A stretch of DNA of 64,000 nucleotides, taken from the NCBI RefSeq assembly GCF_017168235.1, contig NZ_JABFAO010000004.1, positions 1,044,028 through 1,108,027 of the forward strand, read 5' to 3'. The notes below the pieces were generated by a model. It ran no database searches and was not told the DNA's origin. It saw only the letters and a list, made by a program, of their open reading frames with translations. Position 1 is the first letter of the stretch, and every line of letters starts with the position of its first letter. The translations under genes and the position numbers were made by a program. This DNA is from Rhodococcus sp. KRD197. GTDB taxonomy: Bacteria; Actinomycetota; Actinomycetes; Mycobacteriales; Mycobacteriaceae. This document shows positions 20,001-51,788 of the stretch, in pieces.

Positions 20001-23000
20001 CCGGGTAGGCATCGCGAACTTCCGCGGCCCACTGGTCGACGAGATGGTTCGGCACGACCACCCACGGCTGGCGTTTGTGTCCGAGTCGGCGCATCTCCAT
20101 GCAGCTGATGGTGATGGTGAGGGTCTTGCCCGATCCGACGCAGTGATCGAGCAGGATCGTCTCACCGTGGGTCAGACGCTGCTCGGCTTGGCGCTGGTAG
20201 TAGTACGGAATGTAGTTGGGGTTCAGGCCCGGGTACTGCTTGTGTTCGGTGGCGAACTGGGGTTTGACGAACCGGTTGAACCGGCCGTTGTAGACCTCGG
20301 TGAGGTGCTCGTAGCGGGCCGGATCGGACCAGAGCCACTGCACGAACTTCTCTTCCAGCCGAACGGCGCGATTACGCAGGTCGGTGGTGTGTTTGGGGTG
20401 GAATCGCGGTTTGGGCTCGCGGTCGAGCTCGCTCTCGGTCTTGAGCACTTCGACGGGCTTGTTGTTGGCGATCGCGGTGAACAGCTCGAGCCCGGAGTAG
20501 CGGCCGGCGATGCCCCACGGGTCCTCGTAGCCTTGCGGGTCGTCCCAGTTCGGTGCCGAGCTGGTCTCGAACTGCCAGGTCGCGTTGACTGCGGCGTACG
20601 AGACGGTCAGCTCGTCGGGGTCGATCCCGAACTCCTGGACCAGGAACTGCTTGTGGTTGTCGACTCCGACCCATTCCGCGCCGGGGCGCACCCCGATACG
20701 GGCCGGGTCGGCGTCGGGTGGCACGACGGCTTCGAGAGCGTCGACGACGCCGGTGTAGACGTCGGGGTTCTCCGCTTCGGCGACGCGGGCGCGTGCGAGC
20801 TTGCTGCGGACATCGCCGGCGAGGAATTGGCCGGCGACCTCGTAGGTGCTCGGATCGGTGAGCGAGGGGTAGATCTTGCCTCGCGCACGGTCGAGTACGT
20901 CCTCGACGTCGGTATCGAGGAGCTCGGCCACCCGTTCGGGGTCGATGCGGCCGCTTTCGTCGAAGGCGATGGCGATCGCTTCGTCGATGCCGGCGGCGCT
21001 GGTGGCGCGTTCGGTGGTGAAGGTGACGTCGGTATCGAAGATCGAGGTCTTGGAGGCCTGCTCGGTCTCGTCGTCGAAGAGTTCGAGCGATCGGACCATC
21101 GCCATGCGGGGGTCGAAGCTGATGGCCCCTTGCAGGTGATGGCGGCTCTTACGGGGCCCCTGCGCCGGGGTGCGTGCCTTCTCCAACAGCGCTTCGGTGA
21201 CCTCGGCGGGCATCTCACCCCGGTAAGGGGGTAGATCGAGATCCGCGAGGTCGTCGGGGTCCACTCCCCGGTCGAGAGCAGCCTGTTGGGCTGCGTCGAT
21301 ACGCCACTGCGCTTCGAGGGCGGTGAAGTTCTCGGCGGTCTTCTCGGGACTGTTCTCGGTGGCGTGGTTGGTCCACTTGAACCGGTTGATGAAGCCGTAC
21401 CGGCTGGTGTAGTCGGTGTATTGCCGATCGAGCTTCTCGCGCAGATCCTGTCGGTGTTCGGGTGTCGAGTCCGCGGTGCGCGCACTGTCACCGATGTCCA
21501 GGACGGTGTCGCCCATGGCGAGCAGTCGTTGCCACTGATCGTTGATCTCGCGGCCCTTGGCGGGGGTGAGGACCCATCCGGCACCGACTTGGTACTGCTC
21601 CCACCGGGAGCTGTGGGCGTCGAATCGCAGTGTGCCGGGGATGGTTCCGGTATCGCTCCCGGAGTCCGTGTGCAGGCCGGCGTCGTTGAGCTCGTGATGC
21701 TGGGTTCGATCCGGAGCCGCCGCGGTCATGGCCAGGCCCGAGTCCAGGGCGTCGTCGACGATGGTCTCCAGCGCCCGGGTCAGCAGTGCCGGTACGGACT
21801 GCGACTGCGGGGCAACGACTTTCATCGTGGTCGAGCCGTACATTCCGGAACCGACCTCGACGGTGCCCAGGATGCGGTCCCGGTGCCGGTTGAAGTACCG
21901 GTTCAGGTGGGCCGGTGCGGTGCTGTCTCCGTTCCCGGTGGGAAGGGTGACTTGGGCGACCTCGGTCCACAGCGTGGTCTGTTCGGTGGCCTCGCGGCCC
22001 GGCTCTCGCCGGCGGAAGATCAGAACGTCGGTGAGCACGTCGGTGGCGGCCTGGCGGCGATGCGCGGCCGACGGGAGCCGGACGCCGCCGACGAGGTCGC
22101 CCAGGGCTGCGATCTCGCGCCGCGCGGCCGGGCGCACCGAATCGGAGGTGAACGTGCTGGTGATGACCGCGACGTACCCGCCGGGGGCGGTCAGGTGCAG
22201 GGATTTGATGATGAAGTGGTTGTGGATCGAGCGGCTGTTGGGGTTGTGGATGTCGTCGTAGACCGGATAGTCACCGAACGGGACGTTGCCGATCGTTGCG
22301 GTGAAGGTGCCGTCGGCGGCGAACGCTGCCTCGAATCCGTGATTGCGGATGTGCTGGTTCGGATAGAGGTGATGGGCGATCGCTGCGGTGATCGGGTCGA
22401 GCTCGACGCCGACCATCGTGGTTCCGGTGGGTGCGAGACCGACGAAGTGTCCACTGCCGCAGCCCGGTTCGAGGACGCGGGCACCCTCGGGCAGACCGGC
22501 GCGTTCGACGGCGCGCCAGAGGGCGGAGGCGATGGCGGGGTCGGTGTAGTGGGCGTTGACGGTGCTCAGGCGGGCCGCGGCGTAGTCCGGGGCGCTGAGC
22601 AGGGTGCGCAGTTCCTCGCGCTCGGGCTCCCATTCGGCCTTGGCGGTATCGAATATCTGCGGAACGCCGCCCCATCCCGACCAGCGAGCCAGGGTGTCCT
22701 GCTCGGCAGCGGTGGCGGGGCGAGAGTCGGCGGCCAACGCCTGGACGACGGCGAGGGCGTCGAGGTTGGCGCGGGCTCGGGCTTTGGCTCCGGACGGAAC
22801 GAGAACGTCCGTGCCGAGAGTGAAATCGACTGCGGGAGCGACAGTTCTGACTGGATCGGCGGTTGCCTCGACCCCACTACCTAACGGTTCCCGGCCCCGG
22901 TCGCCTGCGTCGACGCCGCCGAGTTCGGGGGCGGTCTCGGGTTCGGGGGCGGTCTCGGGTTCGGGCGTCGCTTCCTGTTCGGACGTGGTCCGGGGTTCGG

Positions 23001-24345
23001 GTTCCGGCGTGACGGTATCGGAGACGCCGGCATAGCGGCGGGCGGTGTCGGCGCTGATGTAGACGGTGGAGCCGTCGGGGCGTTGGGCGGCGATGAGGCT
23101 GTTGCTACGCCACAACGGGCTGGTGAGGGGTTCTCCGGTCTCGTACTGAGGCACCTCGACCGGCGCGTCGGGTACCTCCCGGGGTGTCGCAGTGTCGGTG
23201 AGATCGCCAGCAGGACCGGATGTTTCGGTTCCCGCGGCGTCGACACTGGCCGCATCGGCGCTGGCGGCGGTGGTGTAGCCGTCGATGAAGTCGGCGCGGA
23301 TCTGTGTGGCGTCGACGCTGTCGGAGGGCAGTGATTCGAGTGCTGCGCCGACGACGGGGTCGGCGGAGGGATCGGGCGCGGCGAAGGGTGCGCGCGGGTC
23401 GTAGGCGCGACGTCCGCGATCGCCGAAGTCCACGATCTCGGCAGTGGCCGCGTTGTCGAGCTCGTCCTGGGCGCGGTGCTGACGTGCTGCTTCGTCGGTG
23501 GTCTCTGGCCCTGTGGTGTCCGGCTCTGTGGGGTCGGCCTCGGGTGCCCGGTGGTGGGTCTGCCAGAGCAGGTCGACCAGCTCGTGGGGAAGTGCGTCGA
23601 GGCGGGCAGGGTCGGCCAGTAGCGATTGTGCGGCGGCGGTGAGCGGGGTGTCGGTGTCGTCGATGGCCACGACGGCGTCGAGCATGACCGTTTTCGTCCG
23701 GGCCAGTGCCCAGGACTGGAACTGGGCGTAGGTGTTCGAGGACGCCTGGGCCGAGACGGTCAGATCTGCGTCGGCGAGGACGGCGGCGCGGATCCGCTCG
23801 GTGAGTGCCTCGTGTGCCGACGCCGGCGGGGGTGCCGTCGTCGCGTCCTCGCCGCTGCGCAGCAGTGGTAGCTCGCCGGCGAGGATGGCTTTGATGGAGC
23901 GGTCTGCTTCGGCTTTGGTCAGGCGCGCGTCGACGGTGTCGTCGGGCAGTCCGGATCGGGCGAGCAGCGTGCGCAGGGTGTCGAGTTGGCGTCCGGTGGC
24001 GGGATCGTTCGCCCAGGTCGGTGGGGTGCGGCGTTGCGCGGCGTCGGCGCGGGCGACGGCGCTGTGGTTGATCGAGGCGGGATCGATTCCGGACGCGCGC
24101 AGGGCGTTGCCGAGCTGCCCCTCGGCCGCGCGGGCGCGCTCGTAGTCGGCGAGCAGTCGGGTGCGGCGGTAGGACAGGTCCGAGATCCGCTGTGTCAGTG
24201 CCTCGATGCCGTCGCGGTTGCCTTGCTGGCGTGCGCGTTCGAGCGCCCTCTCGGCGTTGTCGAGGTGCTGCCTGAGCCGGCCTCCTCGGTGCAGGATGTC
24301 GGCGGTGGCCGTGTGGGCGTCGACCCACTGCGCCCGCAGGGTCAG
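17095..24345 (-). CDS. Giant DNA methyltransferase-SNF2 helicase (DarB-like)
   Basis: About 2400 aa. Order: coiled coil (24140-24280), acidic spacer, N6-adenine methyltransferase with RVLEPGCGSGHF (22441-22479) and the catalytic-type GNVPFGDY (22265-22300), then an SNF2/DEAH helicase with Walker A HCVGSGKT (20107-20145), WVDEAHYYKN (19632-19670) and motif VI RFGRIIRQGNV (18573-18603), a helical region and a disordered basic tail. Methylase-helicase giants like phage P1 DarB are carried by mobile DNA and can protect incoming DNA from restriction; that role is inferred. The start is uncertain: the frame is open to 25038 but 24342-24980 is better explained by another gene, and no ATG/GTG/TTG occurs from 24345 to about 23670. 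Confidence 0.8.
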   Translation of the reverse strand: MTLRAQWVDAHTATADILHRGGRLRQHLDNAERALERARQQGNRDGIEALTQRISDLSYRRTRLLADYERARAAEGQLGNALRASGIDPASINHSAVARADAAQRRTPPTWANDPATGRQLDTLRTLLARSGLPDDTVDARLTKAEADRSIKAILAGELPLLRSGEDATTAPPPASAHEALTERIRAAVLADADLTVSAQASSNTYAQFQSWALARTKTVMLDAVVAIDDTDTPLTAAAQSLLADPARLDALPHELVDLLWQTHHRAPEADPTEPDTTGPETTDEAARQHRAQDELDNAATAEIVDFGDRGRRAYDPRAPFAAPDPSADPVVGAALESLPSDSVDATQIRADFIDGYTTAASADAASVDAAGTETSGPAGDLTDTATPREVPDAPVEVPQYETGEPLTSPLWRSNSLIAAQRPDGSTVYISADTARRYAGVSDTVTPEPEPRTTSEQEATPEPETAPEPETAPELGGVDAGDRGREPLGSGVEATADPVRTVAPAVDFTLGTDVLVPSGAKARARANLDALAVVQALAADSRPATAAEQDTLARWSGWGGVPQIFDTAKAEWEPEREELRTLLSAPDYAAARLSTVNAHYTDPAIASALWRAVERAGLPEGARVLEPGCGSGHFVGLAPTGTTMVGVELDPITAAIAHHLYPNQHIRNHGFEAAFAADGTFTATIGNVPFGDYPVYDDIHNPNSRSIHNHFIIKSLHLTAPGGYVAVITSTFTSDSVRPAARREIAALGDLVGGVRLPSAAHRRQAATDVLTDVLIFRRREPGREATEQTTLWTEVAQVTLPTGNGDSTAPAHLNRYFNRHRDRILGTVEVGSGMYGSTTMKVVAPQSQSVPALLTRALETIVDDALDSGLAMTAAAPDRTQHHELNDAGLHTDSGSDTGTIPGTLRFDAHSSRWEQYQVGAGWVLTPAKGREINDQWQRLLAMGDTVLDIGDSARTADSTPEHRQDLREKLDRQYTDYTSRYGFINRFKWTNHATENSPEKTAENFTALEAQWRIDAAQQAALDRGVDPDDLADLDLPPYRGEMPAEVTEALLEKARTPAQGPRKSRHHLQGAISFDPRMAMVRSLELFDDETEQASKTSIFDTDVTFTTERATSAAGIDEAIAIAFDESGRIDPERVAELLDTDVEDVLDRARGKIYPSLTDPSTYEVAGQFLAGDVRSKLARARVAEAENPDVYTGVVDALEAVVPPDADPARIGVRPGAEWVGVDNHKQFLVQEFGIDPDELTVSYAAVNATWQFETSSAPNWDDPQGYEDPWGIAGRYSGLELFTAIANNKPVEVLKTESELDREPKPRFHPKHTTDLRNRAVRLEEKFVQWLWSDPARYEHLTEVYNGRFNRFVKPQFATEHKQYPGLNPNYIPYYYQRQAEQRLTHGETILLDHCVGSGKTLTITISCMEMRRLGHKRQPWVVVPNHLVDQWAAEVRDAYPAAKVLVGGDLSGPRDRQRFIGQTAVTDWDMVIVPESVMKLIAVSKDTELAYIETRMMELREGLERAKETGGEHTVKQIERVLKREQAKQQKLVSSKASDTGLTFEQSGCDFLWVDEAHYYKNLARTSNSADLSLPEGSQRASDLEMKARWLRDRAILRNIESGQPDAPAKAIAFATGTPVSNSLSELWVMNRYLRPDLLDAAGIGHIDAWAQTFAKQRTTVEMNITGTSLRPISRMAEYQNLRQLIAMVDQFRDVVTEDQIPVELPRMRTGKPLVVEFDLAPQVRDFMFDLDERMAATSGRSMDVDNALKISNDGRNASLHPTLAKLPEPEPEHDRVAVAADLLWKTHLEHRDLFTPADRHGPDARGVFQMVFCDRGTPKAGGAGEKSLYARLREALVDRGMERSEVVFIHDYPTPKQKQQLFADCRAGKVRVLIGSTPKLGTGVNAQRLLKQLISLDPAWTAADMQQRFGRIIRQGNVHREVDVVNIVARRSYDATMWQIIERKAHSVQQLRGGEIPDTMEDVGGDIALSAAQTKAAATGDPVYVRAIEQQAHVDALESEQTMIANANASRRAAIDRLDRAAQRLDADMPTIEANADRAAAWLDIDDRAEKMITIDHRTAADDDTESLVDALQNVLQTTYIDMRAVKSGRPSEFAEIAGVAIAGTYRPVNDQLELSIAAGPKRYVEHRKLTEAMSSATAARGILQQMRNMIKELPVRATAAHADRAHIAGRLTELTAQEDRIFTRTDELAQARYALAELKADVNARENSPEALTERGRDLDRRRSQGLYPKWSLDLNPTPAHADAQHSSRAALVESVPDRMQAFAEKWAAAQAERDARRADDPWKPKSPDGSRFQRGADRDSGAPGAAIQWTDRTWHWTAWTSPDNSTSGFEERRDAARYAADDAIRKLDAEPESNSESAAGPERSSEVGSAPSLRSMLNRQSGKKRENSRPDLPDSNHSRDQGLER

Positions 24346-24980
24346 AAGGGAGTCGTGCCCGGTGTCCGGTCCATCTCGTCGAGGATCAGTGTTTCGAGCT
24401 CCGCGGCGATCGGATCGTTCGCTGTGGTCGGCGTCGGCTGGTTGTCGTCGAGTCGTTGTTGGATCAGCGCCTGGGCGAGCAGCAGGAATCGGCCCGGCCG
24501 GTCCATCCACACCCGGTCCACGATCCGGCTCGCCAGCGGCGAGATGTCCACCGACAGTGTCGTCCAACGCATCTCGTCGCGATTGTCCTGCGCGGTCTGC
24601 AGGTGCGCTCGGCGCTCCTCCTCGATCACTGCGTCCGTGGAGATCACCCGTTGGTAGATCTCCTCGGTCACCTGCGGGTAGAGGTGTTCCTCGAGGATCT
24701 TCGACCGTGCCGACTGCCAGGCCGTGGTCATCAACGCCACGGTCGTGGGGTAGTCCGGTGTCACTCCCGGGTTCTCGGCCCGCCACCGGTCCATCAGGAA
24801 GCCGTGAGCGCTGTCCCCCACCGTTTCCTCCACCAGTTGGGTCAGTCGCGCCGCTTCGCGTTCGATCTGTTCCTCGCGGGCGGCCTCGGGCAGGTCCGGA
24901 TCGAGTCCGATCCACTCCCCCCAGATCCTGCGCACTTCGTCGCGGATCCGCAGATCCACGGTCATCTCTGGTTCCGACAT
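24342..24980 (-). CDS. Hypothetical protein coupled to giant helicase gene
   Basis: 212 aa. GAGGGGAC precedes the ATG at 24980, and the sequence has normal globular composition (for example IRDEVRRIWGEWIGLDPDLP), unlike the Arg/Gly/Asp-rich reading of the overlapping frame. Mostly helical, acidic, no membrane segment, no family recognised. It lies between the relaxase gene and the giant methylase-helicase on the same strand, so the three probably form one transfer operon. Its stop TTCTGA overlaps a CTG in the giant gene's frame. Confidence 0.65.
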   Translation of the reverse strand: MSEPEMTVDLRIRDEVRRIWGEWIGLDPDLPEAAREEQIEREAARLTQLVEETVGDSAHGFLMDRWRAENPGVTPDYPTTVALMTTAWQSARSKILEEHLYPQVTEEIYQRVISTDAVIEEERRAHLQTAQDNRDEMRWTTLSVDISPLASRIVDRVWMDRPGRFLLLAQALIQQRLDDNQPTPTTANDPIAAELETLILDEMDRTPGTTPF

Positions 24981-25160
24981 CGTCGGTCCCCTCTCCGATC
25001 GAAAACAGGGTCGGCTGGTCCTGGTCGTCACGCGCCATGGTCGCTGCGCCCCCGTTCGGTGTGTGGTGAAAGCGAAAAATCTACCCATGCGGCACACCGG
25101 TCGGGTGCGTCCGTTCGGCTGATCGGGCTCGTCCATCGTGGTCCGTCCTTCGGTCGGTGC

Positions 25161-28100
25161 TCACAGTTCATGGCCACGGTCCTTTCGTGGGCCGCTCTCG
25201 GGTTCTCGGTGCGGCCCCTTGGCTCCCTTCGCCTGCTGTTTGCGTAGTCGCTCGCGCACCGCGTCCTCGACGGCGCGTTCGTCCTGCGTGAGGGCGGCGC
25301 GGCGTTCGAGTTCTGCGCGGTAGCGAGCGAGCGTCGCGGCCCCGCTCTCGCTAGGGTTGAGCCGCTGACTGAGCGTGGTCTGTTTGATCTTTGCTTTGAG
25401 CTCGGGTGTAGCGGTTTTCATGGCTTTGGTTCCTTGTGTGATGCGTTCCTCGATCAGGTCCGGATCGACCGTGGTCTCTGCCGGTTCGGCAGTAGGCCCA
25501 GTGGCCTCGGTGCTGACACTGCTCGGCACCGGTGGGGTGCTCTCGTCGGGAAGCGATGTCCCGTGCAGGTCCGGCTCGGAGTCGGGCATCGCCGACGCGT
25601 CGGATGCCGGAAGTTCCGAATCGACGGACTCGGTGGTGAGTGCACGGGGATCTCGGGAGGGCTCGACCGCCGCGAACGCTGGATCCGACAGGGCAAGGCG
25701 CGCTGTGGTGCGGTCGGATCGAGCCGGTGTACTGCGATTCTGCGCAGGCTTTTTCAGTGCGGCGGCGGGGCTTGCACGGTCGACGTCGGGCCTGGTGAGG
25801 ACGGCGACCTGGCCCGGACCGCCCGGCTCGGGCGAGCGTGCCGGCGGGAGTGGGGTGTGTTCGGCGACGGCGGGTGCATCGTGGTGGGCCTCGTGCATTT
25901 CCGCGCGCATGATCTCGCCTTCGAGTGCGCGGACGGTGGCGCGGGCGTCGTCGACGGACATCTGGTCGATGCTGGCGGCTGTGTCGCGGATGACGTCGGC
26001 GTCGGCGGTGGTCACGATGTTGCCGGGTCCCCCGGCGGCGGTCTCGAGGCCGTCCTGGGCCCGCTGCCAGAGTTGGTGGGCGTCGCGTTCGGTGGCGTGA
26101 GCGTGCTCGCGCAGGATCTCGAGCAGGGCGAGGTCGGCTTGGGCGTGGAGTGCGTCGTCGTCGCGGCCGTCCTTGGTCGCTGCTGCTGCAGCTCGGGCCA
26201 GGTCTCGGCATCGGGCGTCGGTGGTTTCGAGTTCGTGGGTCGTCTCCAGCCATCGGGCGTGCGCGTCCTGTGCGGCGAAGTACAGCGGGCGCAGGGCGTC
26301 GGCGCGGCTGCGGATCTCGATGATCATGGGGATCGCGGCGGTCATCGCGGGGCCTCGTTCGTCGAGGTACGCGCGCCAGAGATCGTTGCTGCGGGTGCGT
26401 GCGTCGGCGAGCTCGGCGTGCAGCGCGGCCACGCGTGCGGCGGGTGCGATGTCTTCGTGTTCGGGGCGGACCATGCGCAGGGAGTCCATCGACTCCGCGA
26501 GCATGTCCCAGTCGGCTCCGGTGTCGTACTCGAAGTCCGGTGGGGGCAGGTCGGTCTCCGGGTCGGGAGGTAGGTCCGCGTCGCTCAGCTCGGGGTAGTA
26601 GTCGTCGAAGCCGACTTCGAGCACCGGGCCGATCTCGGCAACGGCGGCGATGGTGGTCTCGGGGCCGTGGCTCTGTGCGGTGGCGGGGGCCGACTCGTAG
26701 GGGTCGGTCTTCCCGGCGACCGCTGCTGCCGCCTCGTCCTCGGCGGGGTCGACCAATGCGTGTTCGGCCGCCGGGAAGTCGTGGTGGGTGAGCTCGTGAT
26801 GGCTCAGTGCGGTGATCCGCCACGCCAACGCCTGGGTGAGCTCGTCGGGGCGTAGTTCGTCGTCGACCTCGCGGGCCTGGGTGAGCAACTCGTCGGCGAA
26901 GGCCAGGATCTGTTCCGGTGTCCAGCTGATGGGCGCGTTGTCGACCGCGGCGACGAGGGAGGGCCATGCGTGATCGCTGCGGATCGTGCGAGCCCTCTCC
27001 TCGCCGAACACGACGTCGAGCGCCGGCGTCCAGTGCGGTGCGAGGTGCTTGGACGGTGTCGTGGAGTCCAGAGCTGCCGAGCTCAGGGTGCGCGAGAGCC
27101 GCCACCACAGGGCTGCGGCGGGCATCTCGTCGGGAAGTGGGCGGTCCCCGGTGACCGAGCGCAGCAGAGCGGGGACGTCGAGACCGGCGCGGCGGGCGGT
27201 GGTCAGACGGAGTGCGAGCACCGGCCAGAACGGGTCGGTGAGGATCCGCGGCTCGATCTTCTGTGCGAGCGCTCTCCAGGCATTGGTGGCGGCATCGGGC
27301 GAGCCGATAACCGCTGCTGCCCTCTTGTCGAGCCGGTTCTGCTGCCGCTTGTGGGCGGCGGCGTACTGCGGTGGGCCGGTGGGCCGGAGGTCGATGTCGT
27401 CGACGGTGCGTGCTGCGCGCCACACGGCGAGATCCGCGAGCAGGTCCGGGTGTTCGAGGAAGGGTCGGGCCCAGACGGGCGCGGTCTCGCTCGTCCAGTC
27501 GCGGGCACGTTCGTCGACCGCCTCCGAGAGCGAGTCGACCAGCTCGGCGCGGGCGGTGAGGTAGCTGCTCCACGTCGGGTCTGCTTGGAGGGCGGGGGGT
27601 ATGGCGGGCAGCCACGGCAGGGGTCCGCGGCCGGCAGAGTGCTCCCCGCTCGGGTCGAGCCTCCAGTCCAGCACGGCGGCGACGTCCACCGCGGTGTCGA
27701 GTTCGCGGTAGCCGGCGGCGCGGGTGAGGGCGGCGATCGGGTCGGTTCCCCCGATGGCGCGGATGGCCAGGTGCTTGCGCAGCACCGGCCATGCTGCGGC
27801 GTCGGTGACACCGGTGACAACCTTGTCCGCTTCGGCGTCGATGCGCTCCATCTCGTCGTCGCCGAGGACCTGTTCGGCGGCGGTGCCGACGGCATCGTCG
27901 TAGGCCGCTGCGGCAATCGGGAGTCGCTCGGCGGGGTCTGCGAGTCGGCGGGCGGCGGTGGTGGCCGATTCCTGCGCGCCGTCTCGGCCGAGGATGCGGG
28001 TGAACAGGTCCACCGCCGTGTGGGGTGTGACGGCTTCGGGGGTGATGACCGAGTGTTCGTCGCCGTCGAGGGCGGACCCGAAGTACAGGTGGTTCTCGTG

Positions 28101-30977
28101 GCGGCCACGGGTGGCGGCGACGTAGGCGAGTTGGCGGGTCTCGTGGCCGCTCAGGACGGTGTGGCAGGTGTCGGCGGTGATGCCCTGTGCGCCGTGGATG
28201 GTGCGGGCGTAGCCGAGGGTGACCTGTTCGCTGACGTAGTCGGCGGGCAGCGTAACCAGACGGCCGTCTCCGATGCGGCGGACTTTCAGGCCACCGCCCG
28301 GGAGCGTGTCTTCGACGGTCCACCGGTTGCCGTTGCGGACGAAGTCGGTGGCACCGACGACGAGTCGTCGATCGTTGCGGCGGGTGGTGATGACGTCACC
28401 GACGGAGGCGTGCAGTCCGTCGGCCAAGGTGACTTCGCGGCCGAGGATCGACTTGCCTGCGGCGGCGAGTCGGTCGATGCGGGCACGTTCGTTGAGGGTG
28501 CGGACCGTCTCCCGGGTGGGGGCGAGCATGACCGCGTCGAGGCCGTTGTCGATGTCGCGTTGCCATGCCGAGTAAGCCTGGTCTTCGGCGGCGACGAGAT
28601 CTCCGACGTGGACGCGGCCATTGTCGATGTAGAAGCCGATGGCTTCGGCGTTTCCGGCTCGCAGATCCAGGGAGGCGAGGCCTTCGGCGTTGTCCTTGAA
28701 TCGGACGACGTCGGTGAGGGTGATCGCCCCGGCGGTGGTGGCGATGTCGCGCAGCACTCCGCCGGCGGCGACGGAGGCGAGCTGTTGATCGTCTCCGACC
28801 AGACGGACGCTGCCACCACGGTCGAGGACGAACTGCACGGCCAGGTCGAGGTCGGCGGTCGAGGCCATGCCGGCTTCGTCGATGACGACGAGGGAACGGT
28901 GGTCGATGCTGTCGAACCAGTCGGGGACTGTCACGACGTCGCCGGGTTGGGCGTCGTCGAGATCGCGGAGGGTGCGGATGAGTTTGCCGAGGGTGTCGGT
29001 GGTTGCGTCGAGGTCTTGTTCGAGGGCGGAGGCGGCGGCGGCGGTCGGTGCCAGACCGAGGACGTGGCCCCCTTCTGCTTCCCAGCTGCTGCGCAGTACG
29101 GCCATGGCGGTGGTCTTGCCGGTGCCGGCGGGTGCGAGGGCGAGCTGCAGGCGTTGCCCGGAGGTGGCGAGCTCGCGGACCATCTGCGCTTGGGAGGCGT
29201 TGAGGTCGAACTTGTTGGCGGCGTGTTCGAGCAGGGCGAGGTCGACGGTGAGCGGGTCGACGCTGCGTCCCCCGCCGAGTTGCGCGGCCTGTACGAGGCG
29301 GTCTTCGGCGGCGAGGATGGACTCGCAGGTGTAGAGGCGGGTGCCTTCGGTGGTGTAGACACTCGCCCCGTTGCTGCGGCGCAACACCTCCGGCTCGTCG
29401 AGGTCGTCGTCCGGTCCCAAGGCGACCGATCGCTGCGGGTCCAACGCAGCATCGGTGATGGCAGTGATGGCGTATTCCATCTGCTCGCTCGGGACCGAGT
29501 GCGCGCGCACGATACGGGCCGCTTCGGCGCGCACATGCCATTCCTGCCAGCGGGCGCGGCTCTGACCGACCACCGACAGGGCGTGGTCGGCGCTCTCGGC
29601 GATCCACTGCGCGTCGACGGTGACGGGTTCGCGTACGGGTCCGTGGTCGTGGGTGGTGCGGCGGATCATCTCCGAGAGGGCGCGTTCGTCTCCGAGGACT
29701 TCGATCGCTTCGGCGCGCCAGGCGGCGCGTTGCTCTGCCAGGGAGCGGGGTTCGTGTTTTGCTTCGCGGGTTTCGAGGTTGGCGCGTTGGTTGAGTTTGC
29801 GAGCTTCGGCGGGTGTGGGTTCGCGGCCGAGTTCGCGTTGGAACTCGGCGGCGAGCTCTCCGCGGCGCAGGTCGATCATGCCGGCGCGGGAGGACCAGCG
29901 GGCCGCCAGATCGGCGTCGACGCCGATGATTTCGCGGATCGGGCGTTTGCCGGGGTCGGTGCCGGCGCGTTCGGCGAAGTCGACCCCGAGACGTTCGCGG
30001 AGGTATCCCTCGAGGCGGGTGTTGTAGGTCTCGGAGATCGCGACCATCGCTTTGTGCAGAGGCCGGCCGTCGATGGCGAGCCACTTGTTCTGCCCTTTGA
30101 CTTTCACCTTGTTCGAGATCGCGACGTGGGTGTGCAGGTCGGGCTCGCCGGCGCGGGAGTCGCGGTGAGTGAAGGCGGCGGCGAGCATCCCTTCGGTGTC
30201 GACCTGCTGCACACCGTCGGTGCCGAGCCGGGTGAGCAGGGCGTTGTTCTCGAACCAGTCGAGCGCGTCTTTGACCGCGTCGTGGTGCGCGGCTTCGATC
30301 GCTTCGGACATCTCGCGCGGGGCCAGCGCCCACAGGGCACTGACCGATTTCACCGGGGAGAAGGTGACGTCGTATCCGGCGACGGCGGTGGTCTTGGCGC
30401 GGGAGTTCTTGGCGACCCAGCCGCTGAGTTCGCGGTCGTCGAGCGGCGCGCGGCCGAGTTCGGTCTCGAACATGTCGCGGGCGATACGGGTGCGGATCTG
30501 CGCGCGGACATCGTCGTCGACCGGCGCGTGGGAGGGCAGACCGAGGGCTGCGTTGTGTTCGGTGAACGCTTCGCCGACCGCCTTGCGGAACTCGGTGACG
30601 CCGGAGTGAATGCGAAAGGGGTTGCCCAGCTTGCTCTCCCGCAGCGCGAGCGCGGCGGCGTCCTTCTTGCTGGCACCGTCGGCGACCAGGGCGGTGGCGT
30701 GCCTGCCCTCGATGGCGGTGGCGTCGGGGTGCTTGCCTTCGCCGAACAGGGCGAGCATGTGCGCTTCGGTGACCTCGTCGCCTGCCCCGATGGTGCGCAG
30801 GGTGGGCAGCCCCGAGCCCATCCAGAGGCCGGGTGACTCGCCTTTCGAGGAGTAGTAGTCCGCGAGGGTGTCGCGTCCACGTGCGGTGGCGTCGTGCGCA
30901 GCGACCTGCCGGATCAGGTACATGTACCCGTCCCCGGCCGTCAGCTTGTGCATCGTCGCGGTCACGAAAAAGATCAT
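25161..30977 (-). CDS. traA: TraA-type MobF relaxase-helicase
   Basis: 1938 aa from ATG at 30977. The N-terminal relaxase (TrwC/MobF) shows HKLTAGDGYMYLIRQVA with the candidate catalytic tyrosines, the family's DYYSSKGESPGLWMG and the metal-binding HTHVAISNKV (about residue 280). A RecD-like helicase follows with Walker A APAGTGKTTAM (about 612-622), VVIDEAGMAS, VGDDQQLASV and the late YARTIHGAQG and YVAATRGRH motifs. About 700 further residues are charged and helical, ending in a basic tail. It should nick oriT, pilot the strand through the coupling protein (2247-4205) and unwind the plasmid. The frame extends to 31169 but that part has no coding character. Confidence 0.92.
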   Translation of the reverse strand: MIFFVTATMHKLTAGDGYMYLIRQVAAHDATARGRDTLADYYSSKGESPGLWMGSGLPTLRTIGAGDEVTEAHMLALFGEGKHPDATAIEGRHATALVADGASKKDAAALALRESKLGNPFRIHSGVTEFRKAVGEAFTEHNAALGLPSHAPVDDDVRAQIRTRIARDMFETELGRAPLDDRELSGWVAKNSRAKTTAVAGYDVTFSPVKSVSALWALAPREMSEAIEAAHHDAVKDALDWFENNALLTRLGTDGVQQVDTEGMLAAAFTHRDSRAGEPDLHTHVAISNKVKVKGQNKWLAIDGRPLHKAMVAISETYNTRLEGYLRERLGVDFAERAGTDPGKRPIREIIGVDADLAARWSSRAGMIDLRRGELAAEFQRELGREPTPAEARKLNQRANLETREAKHEPRSLAEQRAAWRAEAIEVLGDERALSEMIRRTTHDHGPVREPVTVDAQWIAESADHALSVVGQSRARWQEWHVRAEAARIVRAHSVPSEQMEYAITAITDAALDPQRSVALGPDDDLDEPEVLRRSNGASVYTTEGTRLYTCESILAAEDRLVQAAQLGGGRSVDPLTVDLALLEHAANKFDLNASQAQMVRELATSGQRLQLALAPAGTGKTTAMAVLRSSWEAEGGHVLGLAPTAAAASALEQDLDATTDTLGKLIRTLRDLDDAQPGDVVTVPDWFDSIDHRSLVVIDEAGMASTADLDLAVQFVLDRGGSVRLVGDDQQLASVAAGGVLRDIATTAGAITLTDVVRFKDNAEGLASLDLRAGNAEAIGFYIDNGRVHVGDLVAAEDQAYSAWQRDIDNGLDAVMLAPTRETVRTLNERARIDRLAAAGKSILGREVTLADGLHASVGDVITTRRNDRRLVVGATDFVRNGNRWTVEDTLPGGGLKVRRIGDGRLVTLPADYVSEQVTLGYARTIHGAQGITADTCHTVLSGHETRQLAYVAATRGRHENHLYFGSALDGDEHSVITPEAVTPHTAVDLFTRILGRDGAQESATTAARRLADPAERLPIAAAAYDDAVGTAAEQVLGDDEMERIDAEADKVVTGVTDAAAWPVLRKHLAIRAIGGTDPIAALTRAAGYRELDTAVDVAAVLDWRLDPSGEHSAGRGPLPWLPAIPPALQADPTWSSYLTARAELVDSLSEAVDERARDWTSETAPVWARPFLEHPDLLADLAVWRAARTVDDIDLRPTGPPQYAAAHKRQQNRLDKRAAAVIGSPDAATNAWRALAQKIEPRILTDPFWPVLALRLTTARRAGLDVPALLRSVTGDRPLPDEMPAAALWWRLSRTLSSAALDSTTPSKHLAPHWTPALDVVFGEERARTIRSDHAWPSLVAAVDNAPISWTPEQILAFADELLTQAREVDDELRPDELTQALAWRITALSHHELTHHDFPAAEHALVDPAEDEAAAAVAGKTDPYESAPATAQSHGPETTIAAVAEIGPVLEVGFDDYYPELSDADLPPDPETDLPPPDFEYDTGADWDMLAESMDSLRMVRPEHEDIAPAARVAALHAELADARTRSNDLWRAYLDERGPAMTAAIPMIIEIRSRADALRPLYFAAQDAHARWLETTHELETTDARCRDLARAAAAATKDGRDDDALHAQADLALLEILREHAHATERDAHQLWQRAQDGLETAAGGPGNIVTTADADVIRDTAASIDQMSVDDARATVRALEGEIMRAEMHEAHHDAPAVAEHTPLPPARSPEPGGPGQVAVLTRPDVDRASPAAALKKPAQNRSTPARSDRTTARLALSDPAFAAVEPSRDPRALTTESVDSELPASDASAMPDSEPDLHGTSLPDESTPPVPSSVSTEATGPTAEPAETTVDPDLIEERITQGTKAMKTATPELKAKIKQTTLSQRLNPSESGAATLARYRAELERRAALTQDERAVEDAVRERLRKQQAKGAKGPHREPESGPRKDRGHEL

Positions 30978-30984
30978 AGCTGCT

Positions 30985-31001
30985 GTTATCGTGTCGTTAT
31001 C
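30985..31001. promoter_or_regulatory. GTTATC direct repeat in traA divergent promoter region
   Basis: Two GTTATC half-sites 11 bp apart (30985-30990, 30996-31001), one helical turn, just upstream of traA and facing the divergent small gene at 31141. A plausible regulator site or part of oriT; low confidence. Confidence 0.35.
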
Positions 31002-31140
31002 CTTAATGCAAGAGGTCTGTGGGGCTTGATCTTGGGTTCGTGAGGTGAAATGGTGTGGCGACGAGAACGGAACTGCAGGCGAGGGCCTGTGGGGCCGTGA
31101 CGAGGTCAGGCTGGCGTCTGGGTTGGAGGTGGGGACTGCG

Positions 31141-31428
31141 GTGAGCAAGTCGGGTGATCGGATCTCCACACGGACTCAGCTCCGCGCGGCGGCAGCGGCG
31201 AAAGTGGCCGATGCAGCCGTGTCGGCGCGTCCGGCGGTGGCATCGTTTCTGGCAGCGCACGCCCAAGTGGTCGCGGCGGAGCGGGCGATGGTGGCGGCGT
31301 TGATCGAGTTGCAGTCCCATGTCGGTGGCCTGGACGTGGCGGCGGAGATGGTGGGCCTGGATGCCGAGTCGGCGCGGGCCTTGGTCTCGCGTGTGGCTGC
31401 CGATGGCACCGAGCGCGGAGGCGGGTGA
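31141..31428 (+). CDS. Small Ala-rich helical protein
   Basis: 95 aa from GTG. Helical with an HTH-like C-terminal segment (GGLDVAAEMVGLDAESARAL). The end overlaps the metalloprotease start by 4 nt (GTGA), so the pair is coupled. Divergent from traA; it could be a regulator of that promoter, but no family was recognised. Confidence 0.55.
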   Translation: MSKSGDRISTRTQLRAAAAAKVADAAVSARPAVASFLAAHAQVVAAERAMVAALIELQSHVGGLDVAAEMVGLDAESARALVSRVAADGTERGGG

Positions 31429-47344: not shown

Positions 47345-47557
47345 CTAGAGCTGCAGCGGCTGGATCGGTTCGTCGGTGCGGTGTTTGCCGAGTAGGCATT
47401 CCCAGGTCCGGGTGTCGAGCTGCTCGGGAGCGAGGCGTTGCCCGAACTTCGTGGCGTGGTGGATGTCCGCGTGCAGGCCGCCCAGATTGTGGGTGGCTGC
47501 GCGTGCGCCGCGGTTGTAGGCGGCGGATGCGATGGCGGAGAGGCGATCTGGATACAT
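47345..47557 (-). CDS. Small protein behind structured leader copy 1
   Basis: 70 aa, AAAGGA before the ATG at 47557. Starts MYPDRLSAIASAAYNRGARA and reads as helical with a TWECLLGKHRTDEP end. Its upstream region is the conserved leader shared with the gene at 48855. No family recognised. Confidence 0.6.
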   Translation of the reverse strand: MYPDRLSAIASAAYNRGARAATHNLGGLHADIHHATKFGQRLAPEQLDTRTWECLLGKHRTDEPIQPLQL

Positions 47558-47575
47558 GGCGACGGTCCTTTCGAG

Positions 47576-47740
47576 GTTCGGATGAGACGCAGCGATCGGA
47601 CATGACGAGGGTGGACTGTCAAACCACGTCTTGGGAGCTTGCGACCGTGGTTTGACTGGACGGGGTCCCCGGCATGTCAGACTCGGGCGACTCGTACGAC
47701 CCCCTTGGTGACCCACATGGGGCGACGCCGGAGGCGTCGA
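47576..47740 (-). promoter_or_regulatory. Conserved structured leader, copy 1
   Basis: Minus-strand leader of about 165 bp directly upstream of the 47557 start, matching copy 2 (49138-49300) over most of its length. Stems: TCAAACCACG (47619-47628) with CGTGGTTTGA (47646-47655), and a 5'-end hairpin GACGCC/GGCGTC. Copy 2 keeps both stems with changed bases, so the RNA shape is probably selected. Conserved loops include GTCGCAAGCTCCC. Confidence 0.7.
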
Positions 47741-47795
47741 GGTAGTGCAGTGAACGTCTACTCCCCCGCATCACCGCCCTGACAGCCGCGGCTTT

Positions 47796-48725
47796 TCAGT
47801 TGTGTCGGCGGTCTTCCTCGAGGCCGCGGAGTCGATCGAGTTCGGCTCGGTGCAGCGAGATCTCCTCGCGCAGGTCAGCGGCGATCGTCTTCTGCTCGTC
47901 GATGCGTTCGGTGTAGTCGCGGCGCAGCTCGGCTTCGCGTTTGGTGGCGTCGGTGCGCTGCTGGGCGAGCGTTGCCGCGTTGCTGCGGTTGTCGTCCTGG
48001 TGGGCGCTGCGTTCGGCGGCGAGATCGGTGCGCAGGGTCTTTGCCTCGGCACGTAGCTCGACTAGCTCGGCCTCGAGACGGCGGTCCTTCTCGTCGTAGC
48101 GGTCGATCGCTTCGCGGTGGCTGGTGTTGAGCGATGCCACTATGGAGTCGTGGGTGTCCTGCAGGGCGCCGATCTCGGCGCGTTGGCGTGCGTCGAGCTC
48201 GTCGAGTTCGGCGCGGTGCGCCGCCTTCTGATCCTCGACCTGGGCGCGGGCCAGCTCGGCGGCGTCTTCTGCTTCCTCGGTCCGCTCCCATGCCTCGGCC
48301 GCGTCGCGGCGTAGTTCGTCATTCTCGGCGTCGAGGGCGTCGGCGCGCACGGTCGCGGCGTGCGCTGCCGCTTCGGCGGCGGCGGCGCGCTCCTCGGCGG
48401 CCGAGACGGTGCGTGCGGTTTCGGCGCGCATCAGCTCCAGTCGTTGGTCGAGGGCTTTGGGGTCCGAGACGGTCCCGATCGCGGATTCGACTCGCTGGAC
48501 CAGGGCCGTGAACTGCTCGGCCTGCGTGGCCAGCGCCGGGAGGACGGCGGCGAGCGATGCGACGGCCAGCTCGGGGGTCGCGGTGTCGGCCTCGTCGACG
48601 CCGGCAACTGCGCCGACCTTGCCGGCCTTCTCCGCTGCCCTGGCCCGGTGTGCCCGCACCCGGTCGGACGCGCTGGCGTGAATGCGGGGTCGGCCTGGCT
48701 TGCGGGGCGGCTCGGCTGCGGTCAT
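47796..48725 (-). CDS. Kfr-like coiled-coil DNA-binding protein
   Basis: 309 aa. A basic N-terminus (RKPGRPRIHASASDRVRAHR) precedes about 220 residues of nearly continuous coiled coil (AEERAAAAEAAAHAATVRAD onward). This matches KfrA-type plasmid proteins, whose N-terminus binds iteron-like operators and whose long coil assists segregation or nucleoid contact. Repeats directly upstream of its start fit autoregulation. Confidence 0.7.
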   Translation of the reverse strand: MTAAEPPRKPGRPRIHASASDRVRAHRARAAEKAGKVGAVAGVDEADTATPELAVASLAAVLPALATQAEQFTALVQRVESAIGTVSDPKALDQRLELMRAETARTVSAAEERAAAAEAAAHAATVRADALDAENDELRRDAAEAWERTEEAEDAAELARAQVEDQKAAHRAELDELDARQRAEIGALQDTHDSIVASLNTSHREAIDRYDEKDRRLEAELVELRAEAKTLRTDLAAERSAHQDDNRSNAATLAQQRTDATKREAELRRDYTERIDEQKTIAADLREEISLHRAELDRLRGLEEDRRHN

Positions 48726-48740
48726 GACTCAACTCTACCA

Positions 48741-48775
48741 TTTCATTTCATATCATTACGTTTCATTTCATTACG
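48741..48775. promoter_or_regulatory. AT-rich iterons upstream of Kfr-like gene
   Basis: Two adjacent copies of TTTCATTTCAT..ATTACG (48741-48760 and 48761-48775), 16-50 bp before the ATG. Strikingly AT-rich for this DNA; likely operator of the Kfr-like protein. Confidence 0.65.
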
Positions 48776-48797
48776 TTGCCGTAACGGGTTGGGAGAC

Positions 48798-48835
48798 AAA
48801 AAGGGGTCCCGGCCCCGTGATGGGACCGGGACCCC
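48798..48835 (-). terminator. Intrinsic terminator (minus strand)
   Basis: On the minus strand: GGGGTCCCGG stem with perfect 10-bp complement followed by TTTTT. Ends the gene at 48855-49118. Confidence 0.85.
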
Positions 48836-48854
48836 GGCTGTGGGGGGGCCTAGC

Positions 48855-49118
48855 TCAGTTAGTGCACCAGAAGGACCCGACCGGGATGGCTGCGCCCGGC
48901 TGCCCGGCGCACCACCGGCAGGTGGTGTCGTGCTCGATGCGTCCGAGCACTCCTTCGGCCTCCTCGATGAGGATGGGCAGCTCTGCTGCGCTGGCGAGCG
49001 CGAGCGCTTCGGTGGCCCACCGGGCCGCGCGCGGATCTTCGGCGGGGAGCTGAGCGGCTGTGCCGATGAGATCGGTGATGATCTGGTGATCGTTGAGCAG
49101 TTCGCTGTTGTTGTACAT
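48855..49118 (-). CDS. Cys-containing small protein behind leader copy 2
   Basis: 87 aa from ATG at 49118. Starts MYNNSELLNDHQIITDLIGT, helical middle, and ends with CRWCAGQP ... FWCTN, which could bind a metal. Its leader is the conserved structured element; an intrinsic terminator follows. No family recognised. Confidence 0.6.
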   Translation of the reverse strand: MYNNSELLNDHQIITDLIGTAAQLPAEDPRAARWATEALALASAAELPILIEEAEGVLGRIEHDTTCRWCAGQPGAAIPVGSFWCTN

Positions 49119-49137
49119 GACTGGACACCTTCCAAAG

Positions 49138-49300
49138 GTTCGGATGAGACGTCCTGGACTGACAGGCTGAGGGTGGACTGTCAACCCCGAAGAGGGAGCT
49201 TGCGACCGTGGGTTGATTGGACGGGCCCCCGGCATGTCAGGCTGGGACGACTCGTACGACCAAAATGGTGACCCATATGGGGCGGCCCCGAAGGGGGCGT
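49138..49300 (-). promoter_or_regulatory. Conserved structured leader, copy 2
   Basis: Second copy of the structured leader, ending about 20 bp before the ATG at 49118. The main stem is TCAACCC (49181-49187) with GGGTTGA (49210-49216): one pair differs from copy 1 on both sides (C-G for A-T), preserving pairing. The 5'-end hairpin is GCCCC-CTTC-GGGGC instead of GACGCC-TCC-GGCGTC. Conserved: GTCGTACGAGTCG and the ATGCCGGGG tract. Confidence 0.7.
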
Positions 49301-49322
49301 GCGGACGCGGTCACGCGTCCGA

Positions 49323-50069: not shown

Positions 50070-51788
50070 CTAATCGGTGATGCTCTCCTCGCTGGGGGCG
50101 GTCAGTGCGTCGTAGCCCTGCTCTGGGGTGAGCGTTCCGGCTGCGACCTGCTCGACCGGGCTCAGGTCGTAGCCGTGCTCGACCAGCAGGTCCAGGTAGT
50201 TGTCCTGGTTGCCGTAGCCGCTGCGCTTCCACCAGTCCTTGCCGGTCCCGCTCATACGAGCTTCGTAGGCGGCGAGGATCTGGGCGAGCAGGATGACCTG
50301 CGCGCGGGTGTCGTTGGCCTTGTCGATCACCTGTGCCAGCGCATCACGCGCGGCCCGCTCTTTCCAATCGCCGTACACGATGGTCGTTGGCTCGGCCACC
50401 GTGACTCCGAGCAGCTCCGCGAGGTACTGCGACGCCTTGTTCTGGGTAAGCAGTCCAGGCTCTTCGACGAGGGTGTCGGTGATCCACTTCGCGGCACCCT
50501 TCGGCAGGGTCTTGCCGGTGAGGAACCTCGACAGGAACTCCTTGCGGACCACGGTCGCAGCGAGTGACGCGACGTTCAGCGCCTTGGTGCGCCGCCGCAC
50601 GGCCCTCTCGGCTTCCTTCGCTGCCGCCTCGGCGGCGAGTCGCTTCTGCTCGGCCGCCTGGGCGACTGCCTCGGCGTCGGCGGGGTCAACGTCACCGGCG
50701 GGTGCGGCCAACGCGGCCGCGAGGATCGGCCCTGGCTTCACACCAGCGTCGTCGGGGTCTGCGGTGAAGTATTCCGGCACCCAGACCTCGACGGTTCCGA
50801 TGTCCTTGTGGTGGTGCAGTCCGGCCTCGGGCTCTGCTGACAGGTCGTCCTCGGTGTCCCAGTCGATGCTGTCCTCTTCGATAATTTCGCCTGTGTCGGT
50901 GAGGGTGTATCGCTCTTCCTTCGACAGCCACACCGCCCAGTGCCCCGCTGCGCCGTCGATCACGGCGTCGGTCACTGGGCCACCGTCGGCGGTCACCAGA
51001 TCGTCTGCGCGCAGGTACGGGTCGCCGTAGGCCGGTTCTTCCTCGAGGAGGGTGAACCCTCGTTCGGCGTAGGGGATGCCTGCCTCGGCGCGGGCTTTGC
51101 GCTCGGCGCGGTCGTTGAGCAATCGCTGCGCGGTCCACCGGAAGTCGTACCGCGCTCCCAGGAGCTTCTCGACGGCGGCGGCGTCGCCTTCGGCGTCGAA
51201 CTCCGCGACGATCGCGGCCTGGTCGAGGGTGAGCTGCCCGGCGTCGAGGGCCGCGCGGGCGGTCTGCGAGCGGCCCGCTGTACCTGCGGTTTTCGCGGTC
51301 TCCCGATTGTCGTAGTGCAACGCCTTGGCGATCTTGGTGACAGAGACACCGAGATCGAGCATGTCGGTCACGGCCTTGGCGCGTTGGCCGTCGGTGAGCG
51401 CGATGCGGCAGTCGTTGGTGTTCACCTGCTTGGTGAGACGTTCGATTTCTCGATCCTTGGCCTTGCTCGCGGCGGTCCGGATCAGTACCGGCACGCTCTC
51501 GACACCGGCTTCGATCGCGGCGAGGGTACGAACCTGTCCATCGATGACGACGACCAGGTCACCGTCGCGGCGCGCGAGGATCGGCACCAGGACACCGAGC
51601 TCGATGATGGAGGCGACGACCGCGCGGAACTTGGCCGACTCGGTGTCGACCTCGTCGCGGACGTTCGGTCCGACCTCGAGGGCAGTGGGGTGCAGGCGGG
51701 CGTACTCCTCGCCCGCCCCCACGACCGGCGTGGTGCCAGTCGTGGGGGCTTCGGTTGCGGCGGTGGTGGTTTCGATGCTTGCGGTCAT
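50070..51788 (-). CDS. ParB-like partition protein
   Basis: 572 aa, GGGAGAG before ATG. N-terminal ParB/Spo0J domain: NVRDEVDTESAKFRAVVASI, ELGVLVPILARRDGDLVVVI, DGQVRTLAAIEAGVESVPV and an HTH region (DLGVSVTKIAKALHYDNRET). A long helical C-terminal half (about 380-570) with a coiled Ala/Glu/Lys stretch makes it larger than typical ParB. No ParA in the window. Likely role: segregation or regulation of plasmid copies. Confidence 0.82.
   Translation of the reverse strand: MTASIETTTAATEAPTTGTTPVVGAGEEYARLHPTALEVGPNVRDEVDTESAKFRAVVASIIELGVLVPILARRDGDLVVVIDGQVRTLAAIEAGVESVPVLIRTAASKAKDREIERLTKQVNTNDCRIALTDGQRAKAVTDMLDLGVSVTKIAKALHYDNRETAKTAGTAGRSQTARAALDAGQLTLDQAAIVAEFDAEGDAAAVEKLLGARYDFRWTAQRLLNDRAERKARAEAGIPYAERGFTLLEEEPAYGDPYLRADDLVTADGGPVTDAVIDGAAGHWAVWLSKEERYTLTDTGEIIEEDSIDWDTEDDLSAEPEAGLHHHKDIGTVEVWVPEYFTADPDDAGVKPGPILAAALAAPAGDVDPADAEAVAQAAEQKRLAAEAAAKEAERAVRRRTKALNVASLAATVVRKEFLSRFLTGKTLPKGAAKWITDTLVEEPGLLTQNKASQYLAELLGVTVAEPTTIVYGDWKERAARDALAQVIDKANDTRAQVILLAQILAAYEARMSGTGKDWWKRSGYGNQDNYLDLLVEHGYDLSPVEQVAAGTLTPEQGYDALTAPSEESITD

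Follow-up and report, generated by a model that had tools for sequence, protein, structure and literature searches.

What do two similar, structured stretches of DNA do when each of them stands just ahead of a small gene and the two genes encode unrelated proteins? The question is raised by 64,000 nucleotides (nt) from Rhodococcus sp. KRD197 (contig NZ_JABFAO010000004.1, positions 1,044,028 to 1,108,027, from a genome of 5.56 Mb in 100 contigs), referred to here as the window, in which two copies of such an element lie on the minus strand. The original prediction took them for a cis-acting RNA, either a regulatory leader or a noncoding RNA. Promoters that are active only in the single-stranded DNA of an incoming plasmid are known from plasmids of Escherichia coli. 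Judging from sequence, we consider it probable (roughly three chances in four) that the elements described here form a family of promoters that belong to the conjugative leading region and act, as Frpo of plasmid F does, from single-stranded DNA. The structure of the elements, its covariation, the strand that folds better, the positions of the motifs, and the orientation to the relaxase gene are the direct observations that support this reading.

Structure and covariation of the element

The two copies are found at ca. 47576-47745 and ca. 49138-49305 of the window, with a mean column identity of 81% in an alignment that includes the flanks. As originally described, the main stem is TCAAACC/GGTTTGA in copy 1 and TCAACCC/GGGTTGA in copy 2, the 5' hairpin also differs between the copies on both sides, and two loop motifs are conserved, their only occurrences without mismatch within the window being those in the two copies. 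A small open reading frame (ORF) starts about 20 bp past the end of each copy (47348-47557 and 48855-49118, respectively), and BLASTP gives no alignment between the two proteins. The absence of a known RNA class was borne out as well, since no Rfam match was obtained in the window at gathering scores; five sub-threshold matches (best E value, 0.54) were all far under those scores. A search for transfer RNAs and transfer-messenger RNAs returned none, and, regarding a phage origin, 50,697 phage records were without a match at an E value of ≤0.01.

A covariance model was built and searched, and covarying homologues were found; copy 1 scores 145 bits and copy 2 scores 138 bits, both copies being in the seed of the model. 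The searches described below used a model built from 18 copies (R1) and a wider one built from 30 sequences (R2), some of whose seeds were supplied by several of the stretches searched. Three stems make up the element, which folds as a long imperfect hairpin: the inner stem (TCAACCC/GGGTTGA or a variant of it), the outer stem, which is variable, and the basal stem. For 26 modelled pairs in 30 sequences, 85.6% of the cells are paired, and changes on both sides are present at 15 of the 26 pairs (86 cells). None of 500 shuffles reached these values of pairing and covariation, and structures that were slid had at most 47.4% of the cells paired. The inner stem is paired in 97.9% of the cells, and the basal stem, with 66.7%, is weaker than the other two. 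For the outer stem (positions -20 to -12) of 46 distinct elements, 340 of 414 cells have Watson-Crick partners, and 5000 permutations of the partners never gave more than 260. What stands of the predicted structured RNA of no Rfam class is thus a conserved, covarying, cis-acting structure (26 pairs, 0 of 500 shuffles); an RNA leader is not supported, as it is the template DNA strand that folds better.

Two sets of 46 elements are used throughout. Fold stability and spacers were counted in the set caught by a pattern, which includes two elements cut by insertion sequences (ISs). Pair types, permutations, hexamers, and ATG codons were counted in the distinct elements among 56, made up of the 44 that the pattern caught once the IS-cut L180 and L203 were removed, plus 12 manual additions whose anchors were picked by eye. 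The anchors of L173 and L147 were moved one position by eye, and the 33 elements with anchors set only by the script were counted separately. In alignment A4, the element of L219 was taken as 23197-23420.

Folding strand and promoter-like motifs

With DNA parameters, the more stable fold belongs to the template strand of the genes, and not to the coding strand, in 45 of the 46 pattern-found elements and in all 19 representatives. The mean difference (template minus coding) is -8.8 kcal/mol in the former and -9.0 kcal/mol in the latter, compared with 0.1 kcal/mol (standard deviation, 4.4) in 289 random segments. In the window, the strand that folds is the plus strand. The hairpin of copy 1 (47569-47701, on the template strand of gene 47348-47557; R2 score, 105.7 bits) has a stability as DNA of -32.6 kcal/mol (z = -4.19), and that of copy 2 (49131-49261, on the template strand of gene 48855-49118; R2 score, 120.5 bits) has -30.9 kcal/mol (z = -3.69), both copies being part of the R2 seed. 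None of 200 shuffles was equally stable in either case. The opposite, coding strands reach -24.3 kcal/mol (z = -2.15) and -19.3 kcal/mol (z = -0.50), respectively.

Since it is the plus strand of the window that folds, a regulatory leader RNA acting in cis, in which the transcript of the coding strand would fold and control the small genes, seems quite unlikely. The position directly ahead of the ribosome-binding sites and the covariation would agree with a leader, as would one near-invariant G·U of the coding strand (18 of 18 rows; position -21 in 38 of 46 elements). However, besides the greater stability of the template strand in 45 of 46 elements, the coding strand is not unusually stable as RNA at the window copies (z = -0.75 and +0.79), motifs resembling -35 and -10 boxes lie within the structure at regular places, and the variable wobbles favor the opposite strand by 35 to 1. 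The last figure comes from the outer stem (-20 to -12) of the 46 elements, in which the departures from Watson-Crick pairing are 35 template-strand G·T, 1 coding-strand G·U, and 38 others. Over the 26 modelled pairs of the 30 sequences, from which position -21 was excluded, there are 64 template-strand G·T and 13 A·C.

The 3' arm of the folded strand is able to serve as a nontemplate strand, because the other arm continues into the template of the gene. Read from the loop to the base, this nontemplate arm contains TTGA(C) in the inner stem (TTGA is present in nearly all the elements found first), a spacer of mostly 19 to 20 nt, and then a -10-like hexamer such as TAGACT, TACGCT, TACGAT, CATAAT, CAGACT, or CACACT. 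The bases at -11 and -7 of a promoter are those captured unpaired by the sigma factor. In the nontemplate arm of the 46 elements, there is an A at -11 in 40, a T at -7 in 45, and both in 39; the equivalent values for the other arm are 11, 0, and 0. The 33 elements with script-only anchors gave 28, 32, and 27, and 7 and 0 for A and T in the other arm. Watson-Crick pairing is present at -12 in 44 of the 46 elements, at -11 in 16, at -9 in 11, and at -7 in 1. When a script that admitted only 16 to 18 nt was applied to the template-side arm, TTGA.. and -12 were 17 nt apart in 41 of 46 elements.

In copy 1, the -35-like TTGAC is located at 47652-47656 (plus strand, as are all the positions in this paragraph), pairing with the arm at 47616-47625, and the -10-like hexamer CAGACT is at 47678-47683, both on the nontemplate arm. 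The covarying template arm of the outer stem, GACATGACG, spans 47599-47607, and its partner is the arm ending at 47678. The nontemplate arm of copy 2 carries TTGAT at 49213-49217 and CAGGCT at 49238-49243, the latter being the final six bases of CATGTCAGGCT (49233-49243).

In the double-stranded form, neither of the two readings has a good -35/-10 pair, as the coding side has TTGACA without a -10 and the other side has its -10 at 19 to 20 nt. A promoter composed of the coding-strand TTGACA and a -10 in double-stranded DNA was considered and rejected, the next hexamer being TANNNT in 0 of 46 elements. An ATG with a ribosome-binding-like site is found 25 to 60 nt past the inferred start in 41 of the 46 elements; the control figure for random places in the same loci is 15 of 400. 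An ORF within 160 nt is uninformative and was dropped as evidence, since 372 of 400 random places also contain one. The same strand bias would be expected if a gene-side promoter produced an antisense or divergent RNA having the folding strand's sequence. Such an RNA would leave unexplained the promoter-like hexamers at fixed places of the hairpin, the start codons with their ribosome-binding-like sites, and the fixed orientation to the relaxase gene described below, and we regard it as very unlikely.

Beyond the hairpins, both copies have a conserved flank on the minus strand (47702-47745 and 49262-49305) with GGTCACC and a GC-rich hairpin. These two features (47707-47745 and 49267-49305) lie outside the putative promoter hairpin; the GC-rich hairpin has changed on both sides between the copies, with GGTCACC kept.

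Relatives and orientation to the relaxase gene

DNA matches to the element were present in 17 of the 101 genomes searched, including its own; one of them (L016) is a spacer in an array of clustered regularly interspaced short palindromic repeats (CRISPR), and another one (L018) was not followed. At an E value of ≤0.01, R1 found matches in 14 of 37 genomes of the genus, 30 of 401 in a family sample, and 11 of 397 in an order sample. The weak R1 rows L210, L212, L215, and L216 were kept out of the element set, and we judge some of them (L210, L212, and L216) to be chance matches. A blastn search of PLSDB with one distant copy matched 60 records, only 15 of which cover at least 80% of the query, the others being partial. 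The records belong to Prescottella (26), Rhodococcus (18), Arthrobacter (6), Mycobacterium (4), Gordonia (2), Paenarthrobacter (2), Nocardia (1), and Mycolicibacterium (1). R2 gave 39 matches at an E value of ≤0.05 in 17 of 18 stretches, among them 2 in the window, 5 in Mycobacterium avium, 5 in Gordonia polyisoprenivorans, and 8 in pMyong1, the weak ones including those of L220 (30 bits) and L225 (26 bits). In a class-wide sample, R2 matched 7 of 394 genomes, all of one family.

The eight elements of pMyong1, the highest number in any fetched stretch, fall within ca. 8.3 kb. So many copies per plasmid, together with one strand folding better and the title of the Frpo paper, which names both transcription and primer synthesis, might also suggest that the element is an initiation site on the single strand, from which the complementary strand would be started by RNA polymerase or primase, with gene expression as a side effect. 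This is unlikely given that most copies are only a few tens of bases ahead of a start codon, and eight priming sites in such a short region would be redundant. A recombination site folding as a single strand, similar to the attC of integrons and with the small genes as cassettes, is highly improbable. The arrays of element plus small gene, the one-strand hairpin, and the insertion of an IS110-family element at one place in the hairpin are what could be put forward for it. On the other side, an integron integrase above the curated cutoff was found in 0 of 19 genomes or records, with only weaker recombinase matches, and the elements precede start codons and do not end cassettes.

Two kinds of events in related genomes involve the hairpin. 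The CRISPR array mentioned above (mostly with a 61-base period; L016:1501-1533, in G006:C1) has one spacer that fits the element, with 32 of 33 bases equal to the element of G011 and of the plasmid of Rhodococcus fascians A21d2; by its sequence, the immune system of the host appears to have sampled this hairpin. An IS110-family insertion (PF01548) lies within the element of G017, directly past CCACCC. The element of G248 shows the same left junction, and G011 holds a right-hand half; the loci concerned are L151:10368-11675, L180, L203, and L004:5-153. The right-hand junctions were read by eye, a pattern search for them having given none. The IS110-type element may use the hairpin as a target.

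The window contains a MOBF relaxase gene (TrwC; 25161-31169, minus strand; PF08751, E value of 6.8e-82) that is downstream of the copies and on the same strand and marks a conjugative element. The relaxase family was found in 34 of the 46 genomes or records searched. We could locate an element and a relaxase gene on one contig or circular record in 21 replicons, and they are on the same strand in all 21. The element is upstream of the relaxase gene on the contig as given in 18 of them; in the circular W03, W04, and W06, it is upstream when the shorter path between the two is taken. The 21 replicons are the records W01, W02, W03, W04, W06-W10, W12, W13, W15, W16, and W18 and contigs of the genomes G000, G010, G016, G024, G035, G232, and G330; repeats (G011, equal to W01; G104, equal to W12; and G320, equal to W08) were not counted. 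It should be noted that the relaxase of W07 is a MOBP taken from the annotation, that the element matches of W06 and W10 are weak, that element and relaxase gene are ca. 130 kb apart in G035, and that G024 carries a second element at the far side of the contig. In many cases, the stretch from the element to the relaxase gene is a run of co-directional small genes, with products such as ParB-like, DUF932, DUF4192, DUF3560, NrdH, and ArdC-like proteins or single-stranded-DNA-binding protein (SSB).

Upstream of MOBF relaxase genes, 15 of 19 stretches (L225, L227, L228, L230, L233, L248, L250-L256, L258, and L259) have a nic-like motif, CACACCTNNT(G/C)C, on the relaxase-coding strand, and none has it on the other strand. 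The motif was drawn from five of those stretches, and the independent test is 10 of 12. From its sequence, it is a candidate for the core of the origin of transfer (oriT) of actinobacterial plasmids. Plasmid F carries CACCACACCCCACGC, which we take to be its nic region, in the same orientation. Based on this likeness to F, the transferred strand would be the template strand of the genes that follow the elements.

The small gene after copy 1 (47348-47557, minus strand) codes for 70 amino acids (aa) and has no Pfam family above the cutoff; the one after copy 2 (48855-49118, minus strand; 87 aa) has 33 homologues and, again, no Pfam family. A ParB-like gene follows at 50070-51788 (minus strand; PF02195, 21.8 bits, under the curated cutoff of 26.3). 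ParB-like genes adjoin several of the related elements, and there is one in the leading region of F as well. Beside the relaxase gene, a 2647-aa ORF (17095-25038) matches SNF2, helicase, and ResIII as well as, below the threshold, a methyltransferase, and could possibly encode an anti-restriction protein. AT-rich repeats of the type AACGTAATGAAATG at ca. 48738-48778, ahead of a 309-aa ORF (47796-48725), are perhaps an ordinary regulated plasmid promoter.

Several observations weigh against single-stranded-DNA promoters. The elements share descent, so that the rows behind all counts are not independent. The control slid by +1 is as high as the structure itself on one of five measures (further pair types, 37 versus 36). 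Base composition contributes part of the strand difference, since shuffles of nine elements alone yield -2.3 to -4.4 kcal/mol; past composition, z is below -1.5 in seven of the nine elements tested and is not in the other two. At position -21, 38 of 46 elements would have a G·U in the coding strand, which leaves the template strand mismatched there, and the range -24 to -12 has 60 template-strand G·T versus 39 coding-strand G·U, so the 35-to-1 bias is valid for the variable part only. As this position hardly varies, it may be a kept mismatch, which still weakens the wobble count. The spacer of the nontemplate arm has the length given above, mostly 19 to 20 nt, and the -10 is imperfect, with TANNNT in 15 of 46 elements and exceptions such as TGTTCT, TGGACT, TTCACT, and CCCAAT. 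Nor does the -10 form a mismatch bubble in every case: 16 of 46 elements have a Watson-Crick pair at -11, 23 of 46 have a G·T wobble at -7, and the -10 of copy 2 is largely paired. TTGAC is not absolute either, pREC1 having TGGACA with a compensating change. The 17-nt distance is partly due to construction, as a free search gave it as the sole answer in 15 of 44 elements and as one of several in 14 more; other distances appear because the pairing continues beyond -12. Finally, the contig of the window bears a second TrwC gene ca. 100 kb away on the opposite strand, and the nic-like motif is absent at the relaxase gene of the window itself, as in L223, L249, and L257, so that for the window the step to the transferred strand is made by analogy.

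Proposed mechanism and known systems

If the elements are single-stranded-DNA promoters, the template strand of the leading-region genes would enter the recipient as single-stranded DNA during conjugation, and each element would then fold into its long imperfect hairpin. One arm would act as the nontemplate strand, with TTGAC paired as a -35 duplex, the spacer, and a weakly paired -10 (xANNNT) beginning just beyond the last firm base pair, at -12, and the other arm, continuing into the gene, would be the template. Transcription by the RNA polymerase of the host would begin close to the hairpin base, ca. 25 to 60 nt ahead of the start codon, and the small protein would be made at once. Once the second strand is made, neither arm would have a properly spaced -35/-10 pair, and the promoter would fall silent. 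Here, we infer that the folding strand is the transferred one, that the polymerase uses the folded element, which would be off in double-stranded DNA, and that the small proteins aid plasmid establishment. With somewhat less confidence, we also think it likely that a separate family of such promoters evolved independently in the conjugative plasmids of actinobacteria, arrayed to switch on establishment genes in the recipient before the second strand is made, and that the weakly paired -10 gives the polymerase a near-open complex.

If true, early expression from the entering single strand would be a more general, repeatedly evolved step of conjugation rather than an enterobacterial speciality. 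In plasmids of Rhodococcus, Gordonia, Mycobacterium, and Arthrobacter, model R2 would then point to the genes that are likely to be early, many unnamed small proteins would become candidates for establishment or anti-defense functions, and the elements would provide natural hairpins for probing what RNA polymerase needs at the -10 element.

From the literature that we looked at, the mechanism is already known in kind, and the family, its hosts, and its layout appear to be new. No report of Frpo, single-stranded promoters, or the leading region in Actinomycetota was found in the accessible parts of the open-license literature. In a 2026 study in which PLSDB was searched for matches to the known Frpo sequences, the main text contains no word that begins with "actino" (PMC12826799), and the mentions of Frpo in the available portions of PMC12614216 and PMC10897028 concern plasmid F.

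The closest parallels are Frpo1 and Frpo2 of F and their homologues in ColIb-P9. Like the elements described here, which would lie in the leading region too, they are present there in at least two copies before separate genes, the template strand of those genes has a stable fold, and -35 and -10 would be rebuilt in the stem. The neighboring genes are also alike (ParB-like, DUF932, methylase, and SSB). Scanning the leading region of F in 220-nt segments, the two stablest on the template strand were L235:15561-15780 and L235:10121-10340, ca. 5.4 kb apart and both 5 kcal/mol better than their complement, the second one ending ca. 300 nt before ssb. In the sections available of Couturier et al. 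(2023; PMC9849209), Frpo2 is upstream of ssb and 92% identical to Frpo1, ca. 5 kb off, and both are needed for early expression in recipients. By this fit, and not by sequence comparison, the two segments would be Frpo2 and Frpo1. There is no detectable sequence relation to our elements, R2 having no match at an E value of ≤0.05 in the F stretch. Compared with Frpo1 and Frpo2, the new elements have hosts in Actinomycetota, a weakly paired -10, and up to eight copies per stretch, and are predicted here from sequence.

In the part consulted of Samuel et al. (2024; PMC11541004), Frpo-like promoters are placed before anti-defense genes, and umu-like genes flank many of the islands; the Paenarthrobacter element of the present family also stands beside umuD and a gene for a Y-family polymerase, oppositely oriented. 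The Frpo' and Frpo* candidates of that article are likewise leading-region candidates picked by fold and -35/-10. They are, however, named there from islands of Salmonella, Serratia, an insect metagenome, and Streptococcus, and the string "actinomycet" is absent from its main text. The evidence for the present elements includes, by comparison, covariation across several genera. Repeated structured upstream regions before establishment genes have also been described, as EGeRS, in the Gram-positive plasmid pLS20, whose authors, in the passages available, reject single-stranded-DNA promoters on the grounds that the transferred strand is the nontemplate one and that no promoter was seen (PMC8708921). 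In contrast, it is the template strand that folds better in the elements of the window and their relatives, and it carries promoter-like motifs.

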